Below, in pieces: positions 12,026 to 22,555 of a stretch of DNA of 23,127 nt. The number at the start of each line of letters is the position of its first letter. The first letter of the stretch is position 1. The position numbers and the translations under genes were made by a program. The notes beneath the pieces are model-generated. The model was not told where the DNA came from and did not search any database. It saw nothing but the letters and a program-made list of their open reading frames with translations. This DNA comes from a virus: positions 1 to 23,127 of the IMG/VR virus record IMGVR_UViG_3300025781_000081. One strand, written 5' to 3'.

Positions 12026-13504
12026 CTAGTAATACGCTCTCTTGCGTCTAAAGTAAGTAGGCTCGTCCTCTTCGTCAGAGTCAAGCCTGAGAAATCCGCC
12101 CTTCCTGAATCTTATCAGAGCCTGACTGGTACTGTCCACGTAATCATCGTGCTCGGCATTGGGAAACCTAGCAACCTCTTCAATCACTTCATCAGCCCAT
12201 GACATCTCAGGAGCCCATACTTTACCCGACTTGAACAAATCAGTCACCGAGTTTAACCTAACAAACTTGTCATTTCCCCTTACCGGCGTATATTCATAGA
12301 TCGGTATTCCCATCCTCTGCAACTCATATATTAGAGGAGCACCAGCTGCTTTAGCCTCCACAATACAAGTGTCCGGCTCCCAATCCTTATACGCCTGATG
12401 TGCAGCACGCTTCAGTTCAGGAAACTCATACTTATCCCTGAACGCATCCAACAAGATGATATTAATATCTTTCGGGTCTTCATTTAGGTGGAATATCCCC
12501 CATGTCGTACACGCAGAATAGTCAGCCCTATCTGATTTAGTAAACGCCGTATCCCAGCTCTGGAGAATGAATTCACAAGTAGGAGCAGCGTTCCCAGTCC
12601 ACCTCTTCCACCATTCTCTCTTAACGATCGCACCTTCTTCACCTGTCGGAGTCTGTTGGTATTGTGCGTTCCACTTATATATACCAATCTCTTCCTTTAC
12701 CGCCAAGAGTTCTTTGAGGGGCCAGAATTCAGGCCATAGAGGATTACCGCTTGGCATAATAGCGGGCAATTCAATCACCTCCCACTCTTCGCCACTAGAA
12801 CTCTTCAGTATCTTCCCGGTCAAATCCCTATCCGACCAGCGGGTCATCACCAGACAAATCGCTCCTCCTGGCTGTAAACGTTGACGTGGACCAGACGTAT
12901 ACCACTCATAAACGTTATCAAATACTTCCGGATCGTTACTTGCGAGCTTAGCTTCCTGTTCAGAATGGGGGTCGTCGATGATCAATAAATCCGCACCCTT
13001 ACCTGTTACCGTACCTCCCACACCGATCGCAAAATAATCTCCACCCCTATTGGTCGCCCATCTACCCGCAGCTTTACTATCCGACTGTAGTCCTATCCCA
13101 GGAAAGACACTCTGATACTGAGGCGAGTCAACCAGGTTCCTGACCTTACGTCCAAAGCCAACAGCCAAGTCAGCCGTATTGGAACACTGGATTACTTTCT
13201 TCTGCGGGAATTTTCCTAGAAACCAAGAGGGAAACAGATTACTAGCAAATTCAGATTTGGTATGACGAGGACCTAGGTTAATGATCAGTCTCTTCAATTC
13301 ACCAGCAGCTATTCTCTCAAAGCATTTAGCCATGACAGCGTGGTGTCTACCGTGGATAAAGCCCGGCCACATCATCTTTACATAATGCAAAAAGTTCTCC
13401 TGAGCCTTTTCCCGCTCAATCGCTTCCCGGTATTCCGTCACCTGCGTCAGAAGAACTTCTGCATCTTCCTTGTCCAGCTTTCCTAATAGGTCATCTAATT
13501 TCAT
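12026..13504 (-). CDS. terL: Terminase large subunit
   Basis: The 492-aa protein has both terminase domains. The ATPase: Walker-A-like GPRHTKSE (78-85) after LIIN, Walker B LLIIDDPH (173-180, D177/D178), a TRWSDRD coupling motif (221-227) and an ELPAIM box. The nuclease: QSWDTAFTKSDRADYS starting near 315 (D318 as metal ligand), IVEAKAAGAPL (E near 390) and AEHDDYVDSTSQAL (D453/D454). It packages DNA into the procapsid through the portal. The ATG overlaps the stop of the LexA-like gene by four bases. The length is typical of the family. No frameshift or lost catalytic residue is seen. Confidence 0.93.
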   Translation of the reverse strand: MKLDDLLGKLDKEDAEVLLTQVTEYREAIEREKAQENFLHYVKMMWPGFIHGRHHAVMAKCFERIAAGELKRLIINLGPRHTKSEFASNLFPSWFLGKFPQKKVIQCSNTADLAVGFGRKVRNLVDSPQYQSVFPGIGLQSDSKAAGRWATNRGGDYFAIGVGGTVTGKGADLLIIDDPHSEQEAKLASNDPEVFDNVYEWYTSGPRQRLQPGGAICLVMTRWSDRDLTGKILKSSSGEEWEVIELPAIMPSGNPLWPEFWPLKELLAVKEEIGIYKWNAQYQQTPTGEEGAIVKREWWKRWTGNAAPTCEFILQSWDTAFTKSDRADYSACTTWGIFHLNEDPKDINIILLDAFRDKYEFPELKRAAHQAYKDWEPDTCIVEAKAAGAPLIYELQRMGIPIYEYTPVRGNDKFVRLNSVTDLFKSGKVWAPEMSWADEVIEEVARFPNAEHDDYVDSTSQALIRFRKGGFLRLDSDEEDEPTYFRRKRAYY

Positions 13505-18358: not shown

Positions 18359-18512
18359 GGATGGGCTTGTCTCTGTCTCTGCCGATATGGTGGGAGACGG
18401 AGAACAAGCAAATCAATTGGGGCTTGAAATCATGACCTCATTACAAATAGCCATGAAAAGGGGGGCGAACATCTACGTCTCGCCTACCCTCATCAACCAA
18501 GAAATGCAGTAA
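18312..18512 (+). CDS. Small protein, TTG start likely
   Basis: The 66-aa ORF has FVICLTQHEDGLVSVSADMV followed by a helix-rich NQLGLEIMTSLQIAMKRGAN, and ends NQEMQ. The best start is the TTG at 18312, seven bases after AAAGG; internal GTG or ATG codons lack ribosome binding sites. Its last 20 bases overlap the convergent primase-like gene. The protein-like composition supports translation. It is the last gene before the orphan leader at 18520. Function unknown. Confidence 0.55.
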   Translation: MSQSNQKFVICLTQHEDGLVSVSADMVGDGEQANQLGLEIMTSLQIAMKRGANIYVSPTLINQEMQ

Positions 18513-19293
18513 AGTTCTGACCAAGTAAATCAAGGCCATGCTTTTGGTGGTAGTCGTTCATGTCCCCTGTCTCAGGGCTTAACCAATACCGCCAACCTAT
18601 TTCCTTGGCTACCCTCTCTCCAGTTCCTGATTCATCGTTATCAGCTACCACGATCCCCGACTTGAAGTTGTGGGCAACCTTTTTCATATTGCCCGCACTG
18701 AAACAAATGTGGATCCGATACCGCATTTTTAGATGCCTTAGCACCGCTCTCAGGCTTAGCGCAGTCGCATACCCTTCCACAAGCAAATCAATTCCCTTGT
18801 TGTCGATAGTAAGCTTGGCTCCCGCCGTCCTTTGCCCCGACAAAAACTTCTTATTTCCAAGTGGATCAATGAGCTGACAACCGCATAAGTTGTCGCCTAT
18901 GCGCATCGGTACAACCAGTAAATCATTCCACACGAAACCCTTCTGAGTTGGAAAACCCTTCTTGGCCAAGTATGGATGCACGTCTTTTACGGCATTATTT
19001 AGGATGTGCGTTGCCTTTCGTACTGCGTTAAACTGATTTTTGCGTGTCTCTTCCTCACTTTTTGCAATCAAATTCATTACTTTGTATCTGTCCACGACTG
19101 CAGATGATCTCCAAATGATGGGCTCCGTCATTACCGCATGATTCTGAATGAACGCCATGTCCCCCATGAATTTAATCGCTCCGTTGCGTGAACTGGGATG
19201 CGTCTCGGTGGGATATCTTTTCCATACCCCAACCGGTGGTAAATGCTTCACAAGTATCCCGTGCATCTGCGCAAATGTAATCAAATCAATCAT
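18493..19293 (-). CDS. Toprim-domain primase-like protein
   Basis: The 266-aa protein carries a Toprim domain in its C-terminal half: LLVEGYATALSLRAVL with E173, then GIVVADNDESGTGERVAKEIG with D218/D220, and a later GDMNDYH. The N-terminal half has an FMGDMAFIQNHAVM segment like the DnaG-adjacent part of phage TraC-like primases, but no zinc finger. It is followed by the helicase gene (ATGA overlap with the start at 19293), forming a primase/helicase pair for replication. Its last codons include GLDLLG, encoded by the antisense of the orphan plus-strand leader at 18520, so its 3' end has probably been recently altered. It likely primes DNA or modulates the helicase. Confidence 0.85.
   Translation of the reverse strand: MIDLITFAQMHGILVKHLPPVGVWKRYPTETHPSSRNGAIKFMGDMAFIQNHAVMTEPIIWRSSAVVDRYKVMNLIAKSEEETRKNQFNAVRKATHILNNAVKDVHPYLAKKGFPTQKGFVWNDLLVVPMRIGDNLCGCQLIDPLGNKKFLSGQRTAGAKLTIDNKGIDLLVEGYATALSLRAVLRHLKMRYRIHICFSAGNMKKVAHNFKSGIVVADNDESGTGERVAKEIGWRYWLSPETGDMNDYHQKHGLDLLGQNFTAFLG
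18520..18535 (+). repeat. Orphan copy of the shared leader element, copy e
   Basis: ACCAAGTAAATCAAGG, a 16-base match to copies c and d, lies inside the minus-strand primase gene's 3' end. The following ATG (18538) opens only 14 codons before a stop, so no gene follows it. It marks where the small plus-strand cassette was cut off by a recombination event. Confidence 0.75.
19086..19105 (+). repeat. Dispersed 20-bp palindrome, copy 7
   Basis: ATCTGTCCACGACTGCAGAT, the exact reverse complement of copy 2. It lies inside the Toprim gene and on the minus strand codes SAVVD, a different frame from copies 1, 3, 4 and 8. It is the best evidence that the DNA motif, not a protein motif, is conserved. 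Confidence 0.85.
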
Positions 19294-21692
19294 CTAACCT
19301 TCCCCATCCTGTACAAGTATGCACGAATCTTCTTGTTCAAATACTTGGTACATTCCGCATTCGGTGGTATCGGCTTATCGCTTAAACCCTTGGGCCATAC
19401 CCCAAACCGCTCCCTGTAAGTGGCTAACGCTCTCTTCTCGCTCCATCCACTATTCCTCACATACCATTGGATCATTGACCAAAATTCCTGTTTCTGTAAG
19501 CCAGTCGAAGAAGCCTGCAACTCCATCATCTCACCAGCTACTGCAGCAACTTTGTTCTTACGCTCCCTGATATACCCGCAAGCACCGCAAATGTTGTCGC
19601 TGAACGCCCAAAATGCGTGACAACGTGGGCACTTGGCCTCCTCTTTCTCCTTCTTGGTTGGCTCTTTCTTGGCCTTTTCCTTACTGTCATCGAGCTCGGT
19701 TACCCCATTCTCGAACACATCGTCCCAATCCTCACGGAATCTTAAATAATTACCGGAGTTGTGAACTAAAAGCCCTTCACAAGTGAAGCTATTTCTTGGT
19801 CCGCAATCGAGTATGTCCCATACTTGCCTTTGGGTTTCTGTGAAGGTTTGTGATACCTTTGAACGATTTGGTCGAAACTTAGACCAGCGCTCAACAAGAA
19901 TCGCAAGGATGCGTCCGAATATCGAATTTCTGGATGCTCTAGTTTGAATTTGTGCATCAGAGGAGTCCATTTTGACGTTCGCCGATTGTTGGTATTGATT
20001 ACCTTCTTTGCCCAACGAATGTTGCCAGGCTCGTAATGCCCATCGTTGTTTATGCGGTCCAATTCCATATCCTTGTGCTCCTGCAAGCAACCCAAGTTCT
20101 GTTGAATCCAAAGAGCGCAGGAAATCGCTGAATCGAATTTGAATTGGATTCCCCTGCCACCATAATTTTGATACTGTGGATTGTTCTTGTTGTTGCATCG
20201 GGATTTCATGGCTGATGTTCTTGCATTCAGCCATTCTGGAACTTGCTTTGGTTGATTGCATGGCCTGCAACCTTTTGTGCGTCCACCCTCTAAGTTTGAC
20301 AAAGAAATTATTGACCGATAACCACAGGTCGTGCATTCGCAAAGAACATGCATGAATCTGCGTTGACGAGCGCCCAACCAAACCACATCTGGTGAAATAA
20401 CCATCACGCTGCCAAATTTTTTGCCTACCAATTCCAGTTGTGACAATGGCCTTCTGTTTTTCGGCACAGTACCCAAGCGAGCACCAACCCTCGTCTGTTG
20501 TGTAAACGAGGTGATCTGGGGTTGCGGTAAGTCCACAATATGTAATGACTGGTCTTTTTCCACGACTAACTACTCCTTTATGAGACACAAAATCATGTCC
20601 ATCCCATATTTTATCACTAATTAATATTTCTTCGATTTTGACTAGACCACGGTGCGTTAAAACTTTTTGTCCGCTTGCAATGCAGTGATCAAGCCACAAG
20701 GCAAACTTCTTATCCTCATATCCCCTCATCACCCGACCCATCTGCTGAATGTGGGATGAAAGTGACTTAGAGAATGGCCTCGCCGACACCCCTACCATCA
20801 CGTCAGGGACGTCAAATCCCTTAGTGAGTATGTCCGTAGCTATCAGGCCGTGGATCTCTGTATCGGGCTTAGAAAAGTCCTCGATGACCTTCTTCTTGTA
20901 GTCGTCATCCTCCCTGTAAGAGATGGATATGAAGTTGAATCCAGCTTCCTTGAACTTCTTTACCAAGTCCTCGCCATGTGCAACACCGGCGCAGAATACG
21001 ATCGTCTTCTTCGGACCGCCGTATACCTCCTGCGTTTTGGATATCCACTCTGCCACGATATCGCCTGTGATCTTCAGCCCTCGTGTGGTGACCTCATCCT
21101 GTGACCATTCCCCTGCGACTTTCTTGGCTCCATCCATGTCAATCTCTTTGGCAATAAATACCTTAAGAGGACACAGAACCCCTTGGTCGACCAGCTGTCT
21201 TGTCGTGACCGTCGATATAACGTTGTCATATACTTTGCCTAATCCTTTCGTGAATGGAGTTGCAGATAAGCCAACAACCATAACATCAGGGTTTGCGTTA
21301 ATGTATTCGATGGTTTTGGCTCTTGTTGTATGCGCTTCATCAATAATTAAAAGCTTTAATTCAGGAAAATCATCTCGTCTTTCCAATGTTTGCGCTGAAC
21401 AGACTTGTATGTTTTCATAGGGTCTGTATCTCCAATGGCCAGACTGAAGAACCCCATGATCGATGTTGTACGATTGAAGCCTTTTACTGGTTTGATCGCA
21501 TAAGACAATTCGATCCAAAATCATTGCTGATCTAGTACCTTTTTTGCCTGCCGCATCTAACATTGCAATTGCTATTTCAGTTTTTCCAGAACCCGTAGGA
21601 CTGGCAAGCATTTGTTTTTTGTATCCCTTTGCAAATCCTTCCCTTAGTTTTTGAATAGCGTCGTGTTGGTAATCTCTTAAATTTAAAGACAT
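19290..21692 (-). CDS. Helicase (superfamily 2) interrupted by an intein
   Basis: The 800-aa precursor is an SF2 helicase: Walker A PTGSGKT (residues 32-38), DEAH (118-121), SAT (143-145), QQMGRVMRGYEDKK motif VI (316-329). The mature helicase is 491 aa: residues 1-336 joined to 646-800. After motif VI the sequence LWLDH is followed by an intein from Cys337 to Asn645, then Ser646 and GNYLRF; in relatives LDHSGN is uninterrupted. The C-extein has a zinc ribbon (C688, C691, C702, C705) and a DNA-binding-type tail. It overlaps the Toprim gene by four bases. AGGAGAAAAC precedes the ATG. It would unwind DNA at phage replication sites; splicing must occur to make an active enzyme. Confidence 0.9.
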   Translation of the reverse strand: MSLNLRDYQHDAIQKLREGFAKGYKKQMLASPTGSGKTEIAIAMLDAAGKKGTRSAMILDRIVLCDQTSKRLQSYNIDHGVLQSGHWRYRPYENIQVCSAQTLERRDDFPELKLLIIDEAHTTRAKTIEYINANPDVMVVGLSATPFTKGLGKVYDNVISTVTTRQLVDQGVLCPLKVFIAKEIDMDGAKKVAGEWSQDEVTTRGLKITGDIVAEWISKTQEVYGGPKKTIVFCAGVAHGEDLVKKFKEAGFNFISISYREDDDYKKKVIEDFSKPDTEIHGLIATDILTKGFDVPDVMVGVSARPFSKSLSSHIQQMGRVMRGYEDKKFALWLDHCIASGQKVLTHRGLVKIEEILISDKIWDGHDFVSHKGVVSRGKRPVITYCGLTATPDHLVYTTDEGWCSLGYCAEKQKAIVTTGIGRQKIWQRDGYFTRCGLVGRSSTQIHACSLRMHDLWLSVNNFFVKLRGWTHKRLQAMQSTKASSRMAECKNISHEIPMQQQEQSTVSKLWWQGNPIQIRFSDFLRSLDSTELGLLAGAQGYGIGPHKQRWALRAWQHSLGKEGNQYQQSANVKMDSSDAQIQTRASRNSIFGRILAILVERWSKFRPNRSKVSQTFTETQRQVWDILDCGPRNSFTCEGLLVHNSGNYLRFREDWDDVFENGVTELDDSKEKAKKEPTKKEKEEAKCPRCHAFWAFSDNICGACGYIRERKNKVAAVAGEMMELQASSTGLQKQEFWSMIQWYVRNSGWSEKRALATYRERFGVWPKGLSDKPIPPNAECTKYLNKKIRAYLYRMGKVR
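19758..20684 (-). other. Intein (309 aa) with out-of-frame nested endonuclease
   Basis: Splicing motifs in the helicase frame: block A starting with Cys337 (CIASGQKVLTHRGLVKI), block B with TPDH (391-394) in LTATPDHLVYT, and block F ending LLVHN with H644/N645, followed by Ser646. Between about residues 410 and 620 the frame is open but not similar to anything, and the DNA encodes in the +1 frame an HNH-type endonuclease (19766-20563). Relative to the intein the endonuclease ORF begins at residue 377 and overlaps block B and block F in another frame. Normal full-length inteins carry the endonuclease in the same frame. See the finding. Confidence 0.85.
19766..20563 (-). CDS. HNH-type homing endonuclease nested out of frame in the intein
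   Basis: The 265-aa ORF starts at GTG at 20563, nine bases after AAAGGAG. The recognisable domain begins near residue 44: LELVGKKFGSVMVI, zinc cysteines C75/C77/C80 and C99/C102, SAMKSRCNN, YGGRGI (134-139), then the core LDRINNDGHYEPGNIRWA (168-185) as in phage HNH homing enzymes with an NNDGxYxPGN-RWA motif. Residues 1-43 and the C-terminal tail coincide with intein block B and block F coding, so they may be unimportant. It would cut an inteinless helicase gene and promote copying of the intein. It is translated independently of the helicase if the sequence is correct. Confidence 0.8.
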   Translation of the reverse strand: MEKDQSLHIVDLPQPQITSFTQQTRVGARLGTVPKNRRPLSQLELVGKKFGSVMVISPDVVWLGARQRRFMHVLCECTTCGYRSIISLSNLEGGRTKGCRPCNQPKQVPEWLNARTSAMKSRCNNKNNPQYQNYGGRGIQFKFDSAISCALWIQQNLGCLQEHKDMELDRINNDGHYEPGNIRWAKKVINTNNRRTSKWTPLMHKFKLEHPEIRYSDASLRFLLSAGLSFDQIVQRYHKPSQKPKGKYGTYSIADQEIASLVKGF

Positions 21693-21733: not shown

Positions 21734-22555
21734 TTATTTCTTAAGCTTTTTATTGAGTGCTGCAACGGTTTTCTTCAGCTCAGCATTCTCAGTCATAAAT
21801 TGATCTCGGCTTTTCTTTACCGCTACCAAATCGATCTTGAGCTTCCTGACCTCATCCCTGAGCTCGTCTATGGTCTGCATTGCAAGGACCTTCTCCTCGG
21901 GAGTGGCGTCATAGTACTTGATATCCAACTCGTCTTGGATGCCCTGATTCTCTTCTGATAACCTGGCAACCTCTGACTGAAGCATCTCGATGATTACGCT
22001 TTGATCCTCATCTGCAGTCGACTGCAGTTCCTTCTTTGGCTTCTCAGCTTTGGGCTTGGACTCTTTGACCTTCATCTCGATCTCTTTGCCGTTGCGCTTG
22101 AACTTGACCGTGTCAGGCTTATCGCCTCTCAATTGCTTACGCATCTTGGCCACGAATGTACCGCTCACGCAACATCTTCTACCGATCTCCCTGTCTGACC
22201 AATCCCCGAACTCGAAGTGCTCAATCATCTCCGTAACGTTCTTGATCTTGTCTTCTCTGGTGAATGGCTTGCCATGTAATCCATTGGCGCTCTTGGAATA
22301 AAGGATGGCCTCGGTCAATGTGCCGTTAACCACATCTGCCTTGATCTCTTTTTTACCATTCTTCTTATTGGCGAAGTACCTGTGGAATCCATCAGCCAAG
22401 TAATAGTTATTGCCGTCGTGAATGATGTGGACTGCAGGGAATTCAGCTCCCTCCTGCATCATCTCAGCATAGTCATTGATCATTTCCTCGTCTAGCTTGC
22501 AACGAGACTGTGTTCCACAATCAATACGAATCTTATCTAATTTAACCAACTGCAT
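21734..22555 (-). CDS. ParB-like DNA-binding protein with C-terminal coiled coil
   Basis: The 273-aa protein has a ParB/Srx-type N-terminal domain: LVKLDKIRIDCGTQSRCKLD, then a GERR-like box LADGFHRYFANK (about 53-64), an HTH region WSDREIGRRCCVSGTFVAKMRK (119-140) and a Lys-rich linker. A strong coiled coil follows (about 185-273, SEVARLSEENQGIQDELDIK and a VAALNKKLKK end). In plasmid and chromosome relatives such proteins bind centromere-like palindromes; in phages, regulatory or replication roles are common. No ParA is in the window. Copy 8 of the 20-bp palindrome lies in its own gene (22010-22029), so autoregulation is conceivable. The link between this protein and the palindrome is inference. 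Confidence 0.82.
   Translation of the reverse strand: MQLVKLDKIRIDCGTQSRCKLDEEMINDYAEMMQEGAEFPAVHIIHDGNNYYLADGFHRYFANKKNGKKEIKADVVNGTLTEAILYSKSANGLHGKPFTREDKIKNVTEMIEHFEFGDWSDREIGRRCCVSGTFVAKMRKQLRGDKPDTVKFKRNGKEIEMKVKESKPKAEKPKKELQSTADEDQSVIIEMLQSEVARLSEENQGIQDELDIKYYDATPEEKVLAMQTIDELRDEVRKLKIDLVAVKKSRDQFMTENAELKKTVAALNKKLKK
22010..22029. repeat. Dispersed 20-bp palindrome, copy 8
   Basis: ATCTGCAGTCGACTGCAGTT on the plus strand; near-perfect two-fold symmetry, with mismatch only at the last bases. It lies in the ParB-like gene, encoding QSTAD in the linker, in the same frame as copy 4 but not as copies 1, 3 or 7. Confidence 0.75.

Follow-up and report, generated by a model that had tools for sequence, protein, structure and literature searches.

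The helicase gene of the phage DNA described here is interrupted by an element which very probably represents a conserved, dual-frame type of mobile intein, combining a Hint splicing domain, an independently translated HNH endonuclease in another reading frame, and homing. The window, that is the whole stretch of 23,127 nucleotides which was analysed (IMG/VR virus record IMGVR_UViG_3300025781_000081, positions 1 to 23,127), is a fragment of a tailed-phage genome. The element departs from canonical full-length inteins in their defining feature, since its endonuclease is not in the same frame. This dual-frame layout is a conserved arrangement, present in at least about 200 related phage and prophage inteins.

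The helicase gene and its intein

The interrupted gene (19290..21692, minus strand, 800 codons) encodes a phage SF2-type helicase with ResIII/DEAD and Helicase_C domains (Pfam ResIII 3e-21, Helicase_C 4e-11). Genes for a DNA primase-like protein (18493-19293), a ParB-like protein (21734-22555) and a terminase large subunit (12026-13504) were identified as its neighbours.

Based upon alignments, an AlphaFold model and the intein-free site of a sibling helicase, the intein was located at 19758..20684 (minus strand, 309 codons). Its residue 1 is Cys337 of the helicase, its block B reads TPDH, and it ends in LLVHN, followed by Ser as the +1 residue. The N-terminal splicing region (residues 1-86; 20427..20684, minus strand) includes blocks A and B and was recognized by conserved columns in 61 sequences, among which Cys1 and, within block B (residues 55-58; 20511..20522, minus strand), T55 and H58 are invariant. 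The C-terminal splicing region (19758..19838, minus strand), VWDILDCGPRNSFTCEGLLVHN, contains blocks F and G and is conserved in the intein alignments. Between the two lies a spacer (19839..20426, minus strand) where the intein frame is read through the HNH gene; it is free of stops, unconserved, shows HNH-like substitutions and is predicted to be disordered. The TxxH of block B is kept in 160 of 162 loci. The terminal residues are HN or SN in nearly all relatives, with C or S as the +1 residue, the window having HN and S.

The AlphaFold model of the intein (61 relatives) has pLDDT values of ~95 for residues 1-80, ~90 for residues 281-309 (~90-94 over the C-terminal splicing region) and ~40 for the middle. 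The top Foldseek matches of this model were inteins and intein-like (Hint) domains, and the Mtu RecA intein gave the best VIA-align result among solved inteins (Z 17.6, 120 residues, 2.0 Å). The two ends are predicted with confidence to adopt a Hint fold, and the middle, which overlaps the HNH gene, is predicted to be disordered. The Pfam Intein_splicing threshold was passed by one relative, and a PDB sequence search using the intein and HNH alignments returned weak intein matches only, with nothing relevant for the HNH alignment. The intein frame (19758-20684) also matches PHROG_26005, a group of unknown function (E 1.3e-7), which may consist of proteins carrying such inteins. An intron was rejected as the identity of the element, since no Rfam intron covariance model matched 19290-21692 at E <= 1. 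By every feature tested (nucleophile, TxxH, terminal Asn and +1 residue, Hint fold, precise insertion) the element resembles an intein, and on these sequence and model features it probably splices.

The overlapping HNH endonuclease gene

An ORF of 265 codons (19766..20563, minus strand), lying at +1 with respect to the intein frame, begins with GTG and ends with TAG. Comparison of its product to PHROGs revealed PHROG_374, HNH endonuclease (E 1.3e-29), and the protein is conserved in 59 relatives. A Shine-Dalgarno-like AAAGGAG (20573..20579, minus strand) is situated 9 nt before the GTG and is read in the intein frame as part of H-K-G-V. Three codons upstream of the start, an in-frame TAG (20570..20572, minus strand) shuts the HNH frame to read-in from above. 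The HNH stop TAG (19766..19768, minus strand) is located inside block G, in the Leu-Val-His-Asn codons, 8 nt before the end of the intein, and the same spacing was observed in 85 of 162 loci. The original prediction had given the coordinates of the helicase ORF, the intein and the HNH ORF, the residues Cys337, TPDH and VHN then Ser at 19758-20684, and a complete HNH ORF at +1 that has a GTG of its own and AAAGGAG nine bases before it; on recomputation the coordinates were all correct and each of these features was present.

The HNH-like core motif, LDRINNDGHYEPGNIRW (20012..20062, minus strand), contains D169, R170, Y177 and N181, all invariant in the HNH alignment. It has DR at the position where the canonical HNH motif has a histidine. 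In the AlphaFold model of the HNH protein pLDDT is mostly 81-97 over residues 41-240, and disorder is predicted for residues 1-40, the part that overlaps block B. Taken together, the two AlphaFold models predict disorder in the intein where HNH sets the sequence, and in HNH where block B does. Searches of Pfam and NCBIfam with the HNH protein gave no matches, and Foldseek of the confident part of the model against the PDB gave no significant match; the name HNH therefore rests on the PHROGs sequence profiles.

HNH starts in the relatives were sought within intein nt 90-200, the best Shine-Dalgarno being picked alike in all frames; this makes the comparison between frames even-handed, but single assignments are uncertain. 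On this basis the start codons of 158 loci were ATG (139), GTG (12) and TTG (7). A Shine-Dalgarno match of at least 6 nt was found at the HNH-frame start in 85 of the 158 loci, as compared to 12 of 316 tests on starts of the two remaining frames. Initiation at GTG is weak, and not every relative has a strong Shine-Dalgarno sequence. No promoter was identified on the coding strand within the nested region by a simple scan. Internal initiation is the probable route of HNH translation, judging by these sequence signals.

Over the HNH gene of the window the intein frame contains no stops, and the third, unused frame contains 12. When synonymous codons were permuted, with the HNH protein and its codons fixed, a mean of 13.2 intein-frame stops in 202 codons was obtained and none of 2000 permutations was open; the chance of openness first put forward, e to the minus 11, was if anything cautious. 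None of the 54 HNH codons standing before AA, AG or GA ends in T, compared to 50 of 147 elsewhere (Fisher p = 1.6e-8). Since an intein-frame stop in the +1 register requires a T-ending HNH codon before AA, AG or GA, the avoidance of T at these places is avoidance of stops. In 162 loci no intein-frame stops were observed, with 9.3 expected per locus; these loci were recognized as open ORFs, so that the zero is in part due to their selection, and the argument is carried by the per-locus expectation and the rarity of broken frames.

Codon-position conservation, which had been proposed as a test of both frames, was measured in +1 loci, using 23 independent pairs. Before the HNH start, substitution rates were 0.148, 0.092 and 0.367 at intein positions 1, 2 and 3 (intein-type), and in the middle 0.130, 0.092 and 0.344 at HNH positions 1, 2 and 3 (HNH-type). 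In the two overlaps they were damped, amounting by intein position to 0.127, 0.061 and 0.200, and to 0.092, 0.043 and 0.158. These rates indicate constraint on both proteins at the ends, whereas the middle of the intein frame can change freely provided that it remains open. The suggestion of selection on both frames holds for the end overlaps, where both proteins are conserved, but not in full for the middle, where the intein frame is only stop-free and otherwise unconserved and disordered by prediction. The results support the reading of the locus as real dual coding, with an endonuclease that would be made separately.

Distribution, mobility and alternative explanations

Relatives were collected by scanning viral contigs with the HNH and intein alignments, and bacterial genomes with the HNH alignment. 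The scans give the nearest 80 matches, and all locus counts are therefore lower bounds rather than a census. At least 177 non-redundant intein N-halves were found, of which 166 have HNH at +1 (163 complete inteins) and 5 at +2. Among the 80 bacterial-genome loci listed, 57 have a dual-frame intein, including one complete chromosome (L182); prophages in complete genomes are among the carriers. Named phages with this layout include Streptococcus phages Javan113 and Javan255 and Gardnerella phage vB_Gva_AB1, in whose records only the polymerase is annotated at the dual-frame locus. Wherever the host protein was examined, it was a helicase or a family A DNA polymerase (polA), and no fewer than three distinct insertion sites are used within the helicase relatives alone. 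Three loci (L323, L115 and L230) have two intein N-half matches in a single DNA polymerase or other ORF, apparently two inteins per gene.

The +2 register was identified in DNA polymerase A of EBPR siphovirus 2 and of four bacterial loci, and a scan with the +2 HNH set brought this class to at least 40 loci, the five seeds included. In EBPR siphovirus 2 the intein lies in the gp51 DNA polymerase (L089:2765-3637), and the feature table lists no HNH gene there. The intein frame is stop-free in the 17 +2 loci examined, where only 1 to 6 stops are expected, so that the evidence from each locus is weaker. The two registers imply two origins of the dual arrangement or a single switch of register. 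Relatives whose endonuclease shares the frame of the intein, named at the outset as the observation that would speak against the prediction, were looked for, and no credible case was found among at least 166 +1 and at least 40 +2 loci. Two apparent in-frame cases were rejected: the contig of L101 contains an indel that breaks the frame, and in L343 the frame is broken twice, the +2 layout being present in L338 and L341, which are closely related to it. Together with L187, which likewise has indels breaking the intein or HNH frame, they are usable as controls for decay or sequencing error.

An intein-free sibling of the helicase (92% amino acid and 88.5% nucleotide identity) was found at L012 and L013, with a seamless site in which WLDH is directly followed by SGNY. 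At L006 the intein is 90.7% identical at the nucleotide level and the helicase extein only 67.6%. The intein-free sibling, and an intein more alike than the helicase around it, show horizontal spread. The divergence of the intein ends and that of HNH are correlated over 59 loci (Mantel r 0.90; 0.74 with mainly intein residues outside the overlap), which indicates that the two travel together. The helicase of L010 contains one intein, and near AVWLCHSGN, at another known insertion site which is empty in this protein, it has Cys in place of Asp; this Cys is possibly the footprint of a lost intein. At L360 (2403-2876) a +2-class intein of 158 residues was found, in which an internal deletion has shortened HNH but left the intein frame intact. 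It is a natural and expected end stage of the homing cycle.

Four other explanations were weighed against a dual-frame intein. Two opposite single-base errors in the assembly, an alternative raised with the original prediction, could have put an ordinary in-frame endonuclease out of frame, and frame breaks confined to single loci do exist (L101, L187, L343). The same offset, however, recurs in at least 166 non-redundant loci, HNH has its own start, Shine-Dalgarno sequence and upstream in-frame stop, and the stop avoidance and codon-position constraint fit two frames; this artefact, refuted by the relatives and complete genomes, retains a negligible probability. The other alternative raised there was a decaying intein with compensating indels, in which HNH would be a remnant and the intein frame would be open only through selection on the host gene. 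The middle of the intein frame is indeed unconserved beyond its openness, and decay does occur, as evidenced by the truncated HNH of L360 and the interrupted HNH frame of L194. The HNH frame is, however, uninterrupted in 161 of 162 loci, and with HNH-type purifying constraint across deep divergence and conserved start signals we consider decay exceedingly unlikely as an explanation.

A third possibility is that HNH is fused to the N-terminal half of the intein by programmed ribosomal frameshifting, with no internal initiation. In 74 of 158 loci the nearest upstream HNH-frame stop is more than 6 codons away, leaving a stretch of open HNH frame before the start, but in 73 of the 158, including the window, such a stop lies two or three codons upstream and excludes a fusion from upstream. 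Given also the Shine-Dalgarno sequence before the HNH start and the predicted disorder of the 40 N-terminal residues of HNH, frameshifting appears very unlikely. The element shares an out-of-frame HNH and an open host frame with the ShiLan insertion (PMC11855218), and like it might be retained in the host protein without splicing. Such a non-splicing insertion is highly improbable in view of the confident Hint fold, the conservation of C1, TxxH, the terminal Asn and the +1 Cys or Ser, and the position of the element at conserved sites of helicase and polA.

Proposed mechanism and relation to known systems

For the mobile dual-frame intein the following mechanism is proposed. In the helicase frame, ~85 residues at the start of the intein and ~28 at its end would form a class-1-like Hint domain (Cys1, TxxH, His-Asn, +1 Ser) which excises itself, and the ~195 residues between its halves would be a stop-free, disordered spacer. 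The same DNA read one base over would act as a free-standing HNH endonuclease gene, with translation probably starting internally at the GTG behind its own Shine-Dalgarno sequence and stopping inside block G. HNH would cut intein-free alleles, repair of which would copy the whole element, and splicing would keep the helicase functional. Beyond this, the balance tips slightly towards these elements being an undescribed and widespread intein class, in which splicing and homing are two overlapping genes, the two registers represent separate captures, twice over, of an HNH gene that was once free-standing, and the overlap may protect against loss of the endonuclease, since indels that break its frame would damage the host protein too.

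Full-length inteins such as PI-SceI and TliVMA likewise have a Hint domain split by an endonuclease, conserved sites in replication proteins and a sporadic distribution. Their endonuclease is a domain of the same polypeptide, whereas here it would be a separate protein from another frame and the intein middle a disordered spacer. The HNH intein of Dalgaard et al. 1997 is reportedly full-length, with an in-frame homing endonuclease. Group I introns with HNH ORFs also combine a self-removing element with a separately translated endonuclease ORF; in the present case removal would occur at the protein level, the host frame stays open and Rfam intron models do not match. Free-standing phage HNH endonucleases (PHROG_374; Pseudomonas phage PfAn1) have a related HNH core, with 33% identity over residues 29-198. 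They are separate genes, whereas the HNH described here overlaps the splicing blocks with its C-terminus and with an extra N-terminal tail.

The statement in the original prediction that in known full-length inteins the endonuclease is in the same frame needs a qualifier, since an out-of-frame HNH insertion without a splicing domain has been published. The ShiLan domain and the Pacc40 gp60 insertion were described by Arsenault, Gosselin and Gogarten (2025; PMC11855218). ShiLan and the window have in common a phage insertion open in the host frame, HNH out of frame and a GTG start, and the disjunct distribution of ShiLan suggests homing (PMC11855218). Neither a splicing domain nor a ribosome-binding site was found by its authors, who concluded that the methylase retains the insert (PMC11855218); in contrast, the element described here has a complete Hint domain and a Shine-Dalgarno sequence, and its hosts are helicases and DNA polymerase A. 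In a literature search the only close matches were the ShiLan work (PMC11855218) and the announcement of a genome in which a methylase contains an out-of-frame HNH (PMC12613952), two possibly overlapping works being beyond its reach. Both possibly overlap with the present finding, and priority is held back. One, a 2025 preprint by Gosselin et al., reportedly deals with actinobacteriophage inteins of non-canonical architecture, and the other, by Gorbalenya in 1998, is said to be on non-canonical inteins. Gosselin et al. (bioRxiv 2025.01.02.630785) and Gorbalenya 1998 are cited in PMC11855218 for overlapping frames in actinobacteriophages.

Standard annotation misses the endonuclease, and the mobility gene of a large group of inteins is consequently invisible in databases. 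The layout would decouple the dose of endonuclease from splicing. Frameshifts in HNH also break the host frame, so that one usual route of decay is restricted, and the long-standing question of how inteins keep or lose their endonuclease is now testable. Protein engineering could make use of natural inteins with a long disordered insert, and the study of overlapping reading frames gains about 200 dual-coding genes from nature.
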